DNA from: Paraoerskovia marina DSM 21750
GTDB lineage: Bacteria; Actinomycetota; Actinomycetes; Actinomycetales; Cellulomonadaceae
Reading direction: 5' to 3'
DNA length: 64,000 bases
NCBI RefSeq assembly: GCF_000701465.1
Contig: NZ_JNIY01000003.1
Coordinates: 496,001-560,000 of the forward strand
A model generated the notes under the pieces. It ran no database searches, was not told where the DNA came from, and saw only the letters and a list, made by a program, of their open reading frames with translations. Shown in pieces: positions 51,566-61,435 of this stretch (position 1 is its first letter; every line of letters starts with the position of its first letter). The translations under genes and the position numbers were made by a program.

Positions 51566-51817
51566 GGTCTCGACAGGCTCGACCTACGCCGGTTGAGGTT
51601 GTCGAAACCAGGCTCGCCCTACGGTGGTTGAGCTTGTCGAAACCAGGCTCGACGCACGCTGGTTGAGCTTGTCGAAACCGGTCTCGACCTTCGCCGGTTG
51701 GACGGGTCTCGACAGGCTCGACCTACGGTGGGTGGTTTGGTCTCGACAGGCTCGACCGACGTTGGTTGAGCTTGTCGAAACCAGCATCGATCCACGCCGG
51801 TCGAGCCTGTCGAGACC
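51566..51817. repeat. Array of about 19-base palindromic repeats
   Basis: The gap between two convergent stop codons is almost filled by copies of one family. GGTCTCGACAGGCTCGACC or close variants lie at 51566-51584, 51705-51723 and 51739-51757. The opposite orientation, GGTTGAGCTTGTCGAAACC or variants, lies at 51591-51609, 51626-51644, 51661-51679, 51764-51782 and 51799-51817, with a fragment at 51680-51689. Each contains TCGA on both sides of a short centre. Neighbouring opposite copies could pair into long hairpins and terminate both genes. Confidence 0.88.
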
Positions 51818-58777: not shown

Positions 58778-59662
58778 TCACGGTCGCGGTGCGGCCGTCG
58801 CGAGCGCCGAGCGCACCATCGCGACCACCCGGTCGGGGTGCCGGAGCTGATGCCGGTCGACGACGAGCACGGTCCACCCCGCGAGCCTGAGCCGGTTGAG
58901 CCGGTCGCGGTCGCGCCGGATCCGCTCCGGGGTGTCGTGGTGCGCCCCGTCGTACTCGACGGCCACCCGGAGCTCGGGCCAGCCGAGATCGACACGTGCG
59001 ACGAACGATCCGCGGTGGGTGACGGCGACCTGCGTCTGCGGACGGGGAAGCCCGGCGAGCACCAGGAGCACGCGCAGGCGCGACTCCCGGGGCGACTCTG
59101 ACCCGGGGTCGACGAGGTCGAGGGCCTGACGCAGCATCCGGATTCCTCGCGCGCCGGGACGGGTCGCAGCCAGCGCCCGGGTCGCAGAGACAGCTGCGGG
59201 CTCGACGCGCGCCAACATGTCGAGAGCGGCGACGGCACGAGAGACCGGGAGGAGACGTCCGACGTCGAAGGCCGTCCGGGCTGGTGACGTCGTGCGGCCG
59301 AACGCCGTCCGGACGATCTCCCTCGGCGCGAGCGACGCCCGGCTGACCTCGATCTCCGCGCGTCGGCGGACCCGTCTCGCCAGGGTCATCTGCGCCGGAG
59401 ACGAGACCTCGGCGAGGTCGATGCCGTGTGCCCAGAGCGCGCTGAGCCCGGAGACGACCGCGTCCTCGCCGAGTGCGGCACGCGCGGCGCGGATCCGCGT
59501 GCCGTGGTCGAGCGGACTGCCGGCCTCGACGTAGATCCCGCGCGTCAGCGTCGTGAAGGCAGGGCCGCGCAGGTGTCCGGGCGTCGCGTGGTCGAGCGCG
59601 TCGCGTCGACTTCTGGGATGCAACCGCAGTGCGTGCGGGACCGGGCGCGGTGGGTGAGCCAT
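58778..59662 (-). CDS. DUF559 nuclease-fold protein with N-terminal AbiEi-like region
   Basis: A 294-residue protein. The N-terminal part (about 30-75: LRGPAFTTLTRGIYVEAG, GEDAVVSGLSALWAHG) resembles the AbiEi antitoxin-type winged domain common in such actinobacterial proteins. The C-terminal part (about 200-285) is DUF559, related to the very-short-patch-repair and restriction endonuclease fold, with ARVDLGWPELRVAVEYDG carrying the Asp...Glu-x-Asp-type acidic set, and a later VLVVDRHQL. DNA cleavage is plausible but unproven. It is bracketed by the two PE hairpins. Confidence 0.8.
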   Translation of the reverse strand: MAHPPRPVPHALRLHPRSRRDALDHATPGHLRGPAFTTLTRGIYVEAGSPLDHGTRIRAARAALGEDAVVSGLSALWAHGIDLAEVSSPAQMTLARRVRRRAEIEVSRASLAPREIVRTAFGRTTSPARTAFDVGRLLPVSRAVAALDMLARVEPAAVSATRALAATRPGARGIRMLRQALDLVDPGSESPRESRLRVLLVLAGLPRPQTQVAVTHRGSFVARVDLGWPELRVAVEYDGAHHDTPERIRRDRDRLNRLRLAGWTVLVVDRHQLRHPDRVVAMVRSALATAAPRP

Positions 59663-59852: not shown

Positions 59853-60653
59853 CTAGGCAGACAGGAGCGCGCGGAGGTCAGCCTCGGCCCGCGTCGGAGT
59901 GCACGGCCGGCAGCCCAGCGCGGTCCACTCGCGCACGAGACGCGGTTCGTCGCGCATCAGGCCCCAGCCGCGGCGCACCAGCGTCAACGGTGGCTTGCGG
60001 CGCTCGCCGAGGTCCCGCAAGAGGCGGAACCAGGCGGTGACGACGGCGGGTCGGGCCAGGCAGATCGCATCCGCCAGCACGTCCTCGGAGCGCAGACGGT
60101 CGACGATGTGCGCAGCGAAGATCCCCTCTGCGAGCACGAGCGGCGCCTCGCTGACGTCCAACCGGGTCGTCCCGGTACGGCGCGAGCTCGGGATGTCGTA
60201 GATCGGAATGTCGGCCTCGCCTGTTGTGCACAGTTCGACGAGCGCCGCCACGGCCGCGTCGGCGTCCCAGCTCTGCGGGTCGTCCCAGTCGACGATCCCG
60301 AACCGCTTCGGCATGTCCGGATGGTCCTGGTCCCGGTAAAACTCGTCGAGCTCCATGACGGGGATGCCGAGGCGACGCGTCAGAGACGTCTTGCCCGACC
60401 CGGAGGCGCCCGTCATCAGGACGACGCGTGCACGAGGACGGCGGACGTGCTCGGGGAGGTCGAAGAGCGTCTCGACGGGCTCGACGGGCGTCTCGACGGG
60501 CTCGACGGGCGCGCTGGTCGAGCTTGTCGAGACCTGGCGTGGCGCCTCGACGGGCGTCTCGACGGGCTCGACGGGCGCGCTGGTCGAGCTTGTCGAGACC
60601 TTGCGTGGCGTCTCGACGGGCGTCTCGTCGGGACCGGTCGGTGTGGTCGACAT
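59853..60653 (-). CDS. Uridine-kinase-like P-loop kinase with repeat-derived N-terminus
   Basis: A 266-residue protein. The kinase core begins around residue 73, with P-loop GASGSGKT at 82-89, ELDEFYRDQDHPD, WDDPQSWD and an LAEGIFAAH Walker-B-like strand, all typical of uridine/phosphoribulokinase family enzymes. Residues 1-62 are unlike the family: two 22-residue units starting VSTSSTSAPVEPVETPVE occupy 19-40 and 41-62. They are encoded by sequence akin to the intergenic palindromic repeats at 51.6 kb. The ATG at 60653 may therefore be a late extension of an older start; no good internal ATG lies between the repeats and the core. Confidence 0.82.
   Translation of the reverse strand: MSTTPTGPDETPVETPRKVSTSSTSAPVEPVETPVEAPRQVSTSSTSAPVEPVETPVEPVETLFDLPEHVRRPRARVVLMTGASGSGKTSLTRRLGIPVMELDEFYRDQDHPDMPKRFGIVDWDDPQSWDADAAVAALVELCTTGEADIPIYDIPSSRRTGTTRLDVSEAPLVLAEGIFAAHIVDRLRSEDVLADAICLARPAVVTAWFRLLRDLGERRKPPLTLVRRGWGLMRDEPRLVREWTALGCRPCTPTRAEADLRALLSA
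60468..60599 (-). repeat. 66-base tandem repeat inside the kinase gene
   Basis: Two units of 66 bases (60534-60599 and 60468-60533) each contain GGTCGAGCTTGTCGAGACC on the plus strand (60582-60600 and 60516-60534) and GTCGAGCCCGTCGAGACG-type sequence on the minus strand. Both parts match the family seen at 51566-51817. The length is a multiple of three, so the reading frame is kept. Confidence 0.85.
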
Positions 60654-60661
60654 CGCGCGGC

Positions 60662-61435
60662 CTACCGAAAGCGCTGGACCGCGCGCGGCGCGGCCTCGGC
60701 CAGGTCTCGCACGGCCGGGTGCTCGGGTGCGGCGAGGATGTCGCGCATCGACCCTGACGCGACGAACGTCCCGTCGGCCAGGACGTGCACGGTGGGGCAG
60801 AGACGCTCGACGAGCTCGAGGTCGTGGGTCGCGAGGAGCACGGCGATCCCGTCGTCCTCGACCACGGAGCTGAGCAGACGTGCGATCTCGCCGCGCATCG
60901 CCGGGTCGACCGCCGAGAGGGGTTCGTCGAGCACGAGGATCTCCGGGCGGGTGGCCAGCGCGAGCGCGAGGGCGAGCCGTTGCTGCTCGCCGCCGGAGAG
61001 CGTCGCGATGGGCCGGGAGTCGTGCTGGGGCCCGAGCAGGACGAGGTCCATGAGGTCCTCGACGGTCGCGGAGCTGGAGCGGCCGGTCCGCCGCGCCGTG
61101 GCCAGCGCACGCGTGAGCTCGCGGGACGCGGTGGAGCGCCGGTCGGCCACCGGGATGCCGTTCTGGGAGACGCGGCGGACCGCGGCGCCGAACTGCTTCT
61201 TCCTGCTCCCGCGCAGGCGGTGCACGGTGGATCCGCCCCACGTGACCGTCCCGCCGCGGGGCTTCGTGAGTCCGAGCATCGCGAAGAGGAGGCTCGACTT
61301 CCCGGACCCCATCGGCCCGATCAGCCCGACGGGTGACTGCCCGGGGGTGAGGTCGAGCGAGACACCGCGGACGACGTCGGACGACTCACCGGCCCACAGG
61401 TCGCGGGCGCTGAGCGTGGTCTGGGGGTGGGGCAT
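60662..61435 (-). CDS. Orphan ABC transporter ATP-binding protein
   Basis: A 257-residue ATPase: Walker A GPMGSGKSS, signature LSGGEQQR, Walker B ILVLDEPLSAVD, H-loop ATHD. No permease is beside it; the next gene on the strand is the kinase, eight bases away. The layout could be a remnant of an ECF-type or nucleobase/vitamin uptake unit, or the ATPase may serve permeases elsewhere. Confidence 0.88.
   Translation of the reverse strand: MPHPQTTLSARDLWAGESSDVVRGVSLDLTPGQSPVGLIGPMGSGKSSLLFAMLGLTKPRGGTVTWGGSTVHRLRGSRKKQFGAAVRRVSQNGIPVADRRSTASRELTRALATARRTGRSSSATVEDLMDLVLLGPQHDSRPIATLSGGEQQRLALALALATRPEILVLDEPLSAVDPAMRGEIARLLSSVVEDDGIAVLLATHDLELVERLCPTVHVLADGTFVASGSMRDILAAPEHPAVRDLAEAAPRAVQRFR

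Follow-up and report, generated by a model that had tools for sequence, protein, structure and literature searches.

The Rickettsia palindromic elements (RPEs) were reportedly described by Ogata in 2000 and 2002. In actinobacteria, the mycobacterial MIRUs lie at gene junctions, where they can lengthen reading frames. They are tandem minisatellites of greater length, and among them we know of neither a palindromic 23-nt unit nor a wide spread within genes. RPEs are palindromic repeats of ~150 bp which are dispersed and sit in the reading frame of many unrelated protein genes (PMC10969869). The GTAG/CGTC REPs are short multi-copy stem-loops, arranged as dimers or clusters between genes and showing alternative complementary stem residues (Di Nocera 2013, PMC3733652). 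Their definition includes an end tag and a stem of ~5-13 bp (GTAG) or 8-9 bp (CGTC), and some copies fall within ORFs, among them genes for repair and tRNA synthetases (PMC3733652). Actinobacteria are not named as carriers of GTAG or CGTC REPs in that survey (PMC3733652). In-frame palindromic inserts have so far been highlighted as a Rickettsia oddity, alongside sporadic REP examples elsewhere among bacteria.

We analyzed a 64,000-nt stretch of the Paraoerskovia marina DSM 21750 genome (the window), in which a kinase gene contains palindromic repeats near its start. We consider it likely that a cluster of REP-like hairpins entered or grew in the 5' end of this gene, that it was kept as a frame-safe flexible peptide, and that the element spreads in bursts. 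Among the papers listed by open-literature searches, there was no bacterial repeat report for the DNA words of the element; searches with its peptides gave no papers, and those combining REP with actinobacteria gave nothing relevant.

Sequence and structure of the repeat unit

The repeat unit is 23 nt long and has the form N4-TCGACNRGCTC-N4'-NNCG, that is, a 4-nt arm, an 11-nt loop, the complementary arm, and a tail. On the opposite strand, it reads as CGNN followed by the hairpin. The 19-mer that the preliminary description proposed to search for belongs to a genome-wide family, and the element runs 4 nt further, through NNCG. Core copies in the retrieved stretches were defined by the fixed 11-nt loop TCGACNRGCTC, so the invariance of the loop is imposed by the search pattern. 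Fully complementary 4-nt arms are present in 189 of the 272 core copies. The arm types among these perfect-arm copies include GGTC/GACC (113), GGTT/AACC (33), CGTC/GACG (23), GATC/GATC (12), and GGCT/AGCC (7). Two bases after the stem, C is found in 188/189 of them and G follows in 175/189, in intergenic and in-gene copies alike, and the NNCG tail is missing from core sequences without complementary arms.

For the covariation analysis, we used 96 distinct copies chosen by loop and tail only, with arm complementarity not required. All four arm pairs vary on both sides in this set. Two-sided changes occupied 48 stem cells compared with a shuffled mean of 11.8, and 90.1% of the stem cells were paired, compared with 4-48% (maximum 47.7%) in the slid controls. 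Shuffles can be beaten by the mere relatedness of the copies, but the slid control preserves relatedness and was still clearly exceeded. Stem pairing outside the 4-bp arms was looked for, and none was found. The Rfam search of the element gave no family at the gathering score; its sub-threshold matches, mostly to microRNA models, were judged to be chance matches to hairpins.

An 18-nt core of the element has 266 matches in the P. marina genome (at most one mismatch) and 0 for the reversed pattern, indicating that the family is not due to chance. About none were found in three congeners. The copies in the window are confined to the kinase block and one gap between genes:

51566..51817, both orientations: intergenic array of eight element copies with GGTC/GACC and GGTT/AACC stems; no called gene

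A repeat family common to this gap and the kinase start had been proposed before, and it is borne out by the eight copies in the gap and five in the kinase. Since intergenic copies have the same stem and NNCG tail, and copies occur in either orientation and in several reading frames, the element is a dispersed DNA family and not a convergent peptide.

The kinase gene and its repeat block

The features around the kinase start are as follows:

59853..60653, minus strand: P-loop kinase of the uridine kinase / phosphoribulokinase type, 266 aa, with repeats near the N-terminus; starts at ATG 60653
60618..60653, minus strand: codons 1-12 of the kinase (MSTTPTGPDETP), the likely ancestral N-terminus; a congener has the similar VSDSTPAGPDAPTETDALFD
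60468..60617, minus strand: inserted repeat block, kinase codons 13-62 (VETPRKVSTSSTSAPVEPVET...VEPVETPVEPVET); all aligned orthologues are without it
60582..60600, minus strand: element copy GGTC-TCGACAAGCTC-GACC, then AGCG; the kinase reads VSTSST
60555..60573, plus strand: element copy CGTC-TCGACGGGCTC-GACG, then GGCG; its complement is read VEPVET by the kinase
60516..60534, minus strand: element copy GGTC-TCGACAAGCTC-GACC, then AGCG; the kinase reads VSTSST
60489..60507, plus strand: element copy CGTC-TCGACGGGCTC-GACG, then GGCG; its complement is read VEPVET by the kinase
60468..60486, plus strand: element copy CGTC-TCGACGGGCTC-GACG, then GGCG; its complement is read VEPVET by the kinase
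60662..61435, minus strand: ABC transporter ATPase gene (ABC_tran PF00005), directly upstream of the kinase; its stop is 8 nt before the kinase ATG

The Pfam model PRK (PF00485) scores above its cut-off at residues 79-188 of the kinase, and NCBIfam uridine kinase models match below theirs. The best matches of the predicted structure are uridine-cytidine kinases (top E 7.5e-11). The ABC ATPase gene and the kinase gene probably form an operon. In the gene downstream of the kinase (58778-59623, minus strand), a C-terminal stretch looks by eye like a DUF559/Vsr-type nuclease domain.

All five copies in the block have fully complementary 4-nt arms, and their spacing keeps the frame. The minus-strand copies at 60582-60600 and 60516-60534 are exact copies of GGTCTCGACAAGCTCGACC, 66 nt apart. 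The two 66-nt units of the preliminary description are right in this respect; as whole units, they share 56/66 and their 3' ends diverge. Similarly, the repeat origin it gave to the first 62 residues applies to residues 13-62, but not to residues 1-12. In an alignment of kinase orthologues from 27 other genomes, including the three congeners, none has the repeat block, which agrees with the earlier proposal that the repeat entered or grew at the 5' end and left the frame intact.

We checked codons 1-90 for ATG, GTG, and TTG. The only possible starts are ATG1 and ATG80, with none in frame between them, which argues against a start downstream of the repeats, a concern raised with the first report of this locus. 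ATG80 is inside the ATP-binding strand, ahead of the P-loop. Because there is no other start, the repeat block must be translated if the kinase works, and we infer from the sequence that the repeat peptides are actually translated in the cell. The block is predicted to be disordered, with block means of pLDDT at 50-66, whereas most of the kinase body reaches at least 90; confidence is low over about the first 70 residues and high in the body. Judging from this model, the insert is most likely a flexible tail at the N-terminus.

The 251 nt around the kinase start are predicted to fold more stably than 200 of 200 shuffles (z -3.8), and this fold of the mRNA could possibly affect kinase translation. 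The folding would fit recruitment of the element as an RNA hairpin controlling expression, its translation being incidental, and the covarying stems suit a structure in RNA as well as in single-stranded DNA. We regard such recruitment as unlikely: many copies are located deep within genes and near C-termini, Rfam has no family for the element at the gathering score, and a hairpin of 4 bp around an 11-nt loop has little strength on its own.

Copies in frame inside genes

To survey in-gene copies, genes were called from codon usage in the window and in 27 retrieved stretches (~300 kb). Some of these stretches had been chosen for a peptide match, and the main counts were repeated without them. 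In this sampled part of the genome, at least 26 ORFs have in-frame copies (at most one mismatch). The preliminary description had one such gene, and the pattern is also seen in a second genus. By NCBIfam equivalog models, the element-bearing ORFs include isoleucyl-tRNA synthetase (ileS) and Mfd (mfd). A DHFR (folA) is recognized by several sub-threshold models, and by sequence reading there are a cobalamin-independent methionine synthase (metE), a serine dehydratase, an HrpA-type helicase (hrpA), and a MoeB-type protein. The element is inside at least two dozen proteins, essential enzymes among them, and is read as a flexible linker.

The copies are retained in frame. Spacing between in-gene copies of the same orientation is a multiple of three in 41/41 pairs, compared with 12/30 intergenic pairs (at most three mismatches; Fisher P 2.8e-9), and in 23/24 in-gene cases when perfect-arm copies are taken and the peptide-selected stretches are left out. 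The frames are also biased, with 44 of the 54 exact in-gene copies in the VST[SG]ST or VEPVET/VELVET frames. The GGTC form is stop-free in all frames, yet mainly two frames are used in genes. In VST-frame copies, 33/38 departures from the consensus affect the third position of a codon; this excess was not relied on, as it arises in part because the variable centre and the arm ends fall there.

A DHFR-like (folA-type) protein (L116:10207-10935, plus strand) has, close to its C-terminus, a repeat insert of 67 residues in a loop which is short in congeners. This insert is read as GLDKLD and SSSLSRR rather than in the usual two frames, and the predicted-structure confidence of residues 153-208 is below 50. 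In the HrpA-type helicase (L121:2633-7096, plus strand), the element is found at several separate sites, one of which is also occupied in the orthologues of G012 and G036.

Both patterns recur in a second genus. G036 belongs to another genus; in 400 kb of its sequence, 19 ORFs have in-frame copies, and 44 of the 46 in-gene copies are in the VST[SG]ST/VEPVET frames. Spacing is a multiple of three in 17/17 in-gene cases, compared with 21/61 intergenic ones (Fisher P 4.6e-7). The GGTT form is dominant in G036 and a stop closes one of its six frames, but the frame bias is still extreme against a 2/5 null. The density of the element is higher between genes than inside them, ~8-fold in P. marina and ~23-fold in G036.

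DNA uptake sequences such as the DUS of Neisseria and the USS of Haemophilus have a high copy number, inverted intergenic pairs, and preferred reading frames in genes. The element matches these habits, and its loop recurs hundreds of times, although the search imposed the loop's invariance. An uptake or recognition word accumulating by biased uptake and point mutation is nevertheless quite improbable here. The in-gene copies are whole added blocks missing in orthologues rather than substitutions, the copies form dense arrays, and a plain recognition word has no need of stem covariation. It is hardly credible that VEPVET-like linkers were selected at the protein level and resemble each other in DNA through codon bias. 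The GC-rich codons of all kinase copies and the hydrophilic linker reading of most in-gene copies would fit this, but non-coding gaps are filled with the same DNA, stem and NNCG tail included, which largely refutes it, and some genes use other frames (e.g., GLDKLD and SSLSR in folA).

Orthologous sites and distribution across genomes

We compared 22 insertion sites with the congeners G001-G003. At most of these sites, the congeners have nothing or a non-repeat linker of variable length, and their sequences have diverged at these linkers. No orthologue was aligned for the hexosaminidase, the CcdA-type, anti-sigma-type, and signal-peptidase-type proteins, and one secreted protein. The linkers occupied in Mfd and the HrpA-type helicase also contain copies in G012 and G036, and so does the IleRS linker in G012; these copies are the genomes' own and have GGTT stems. 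Because closer relatives are without copies, separate entry into the same tolerant linkers (mfd, hrpA, ileS) would be the simplest reading of these alignments. Loss in the congeners may also account for the shared sites.

Across the family (121 genomes), most genomes show the element at background level and a few have it in abundance, with counts of 532 (G036), 191 (G489), 188 (G000), 186 (G012), 165 (G517), 159 (G522), and 134 (G462). The same genus holds element-poor and element-rich species, and copy number within a genus spans background to hundreds (G009/G033 and G036/G465). This range would permit a search for a co-occurring gene. In a phylum-wide sample, the element is found in scattered genomes only. 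The 754-kb plasmid NZ_CP012477.1 of Arthrobacter sp. ERGS1:01 has an intergenic array at 122804-122939. Its copies share the loop and the NNCG tail, and their arms covary (GATC and GGTT stems). Given this array, plasmids could carry the element between hosts.

The Y1 transposase model PF01797 has no match in the repeat-rich genomes G000, G009, G012, G036, and G041 and was found in controls such as E. coli. The source genome also gives no match to the reverse transcriptase or IS110 families. As mobilizers, Y1, reverse transcriptase, and IS110 were rejected for being absent or not following copy number.

Origin and meaning of the insertions

In the reading we prefer, a dispersed REP-like hairpin would have entered the kinase 5' end or expanded there from a seed copy, and the block would have been retained with the frame unbroken and a flexible, hydrophilic peptide as its product. 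The element would multiply in bursts within single genomes and be densest between genes. In-gene copies would be kept where extra residues are tolerated, such as linkers, loops, and termini, and mainly in two of the six frames, VST[SG]ST or VEPVET. The blocks would then grow by local duplications whose lengths are multiples of three. The element presumably spreads through an enzyme that copies the hairpin, probably in the form of single-stranded DNA, and the effect of the inserts on the host proteins is presumably neutral or nearly so. A broader proposal, toward which we lean slightly less than against, is that self-spreading actinobacterial REP-like hairpins with non-Y1 copying independently invade the same linkers of essential proteins across genera and are a standing source of disordered segments.

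The family described here does in actinobacteria what was highlighted in Rickettsia, with a unit that is far smaller and follows a clear structural grammar, and with parallel cases in two genera. The uninvaded congeners serve as controls, which makes this a tractable system for the spread of repeats without a known transposase, and the element lets the origin of new protein segments from mobile DNA be studied. For annotation, the VEPVET and VST[SG]ST stretches in these proteins should be treated as repeat-derived and not as conserved domains.

Comparison with known systems

The element resembles RPEs in being palindromic and in frame in at least 26 ORFs here and 19 in G036, with orthologues that are without the block. 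It differs in its 23-nt unit compared with ~150 bp, its 4-bp covarying stem, 11-nt loop, and NNCG tail, its actinobacterial host, and the clustering of its copies in arrays. The likeness to RPEs drawn in the preliminary description therefore holds for the way the element acts, by inserting in frame in protein genes, but does not make it a member of that family. Like the GTAG/CGTC REPs, the element is a short stem-loop that is dispersed and has alternative complementary bases in its stem. However, it has no GTAG tag, CGTC is merely one of several CGNN forms, and its stem is 4 bp with an 11-nt loop, whereas REP stems are mostly 6-9 bp. The CGNN 5' of the hairpin resembles the tag at the hairpin foot of REP elements (PMC6006769). 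The high copy number, inverted pairs, and patchy expansion among related genomes are shared with REPINs (PMC3116915, PMC6006769). Unlike the REPIN/RAYT (TnpA-REP) system, there is no Y1_Tnp match in G000, G009, G012, G036, or G041. Without the RPE length, the GTAG/CGTC tag and long stem, or a RAYT partner, the element lacks defining features of each, while its mode of action resembles that of RPEs and of the intragenic REPs in the Di Nocera survey.
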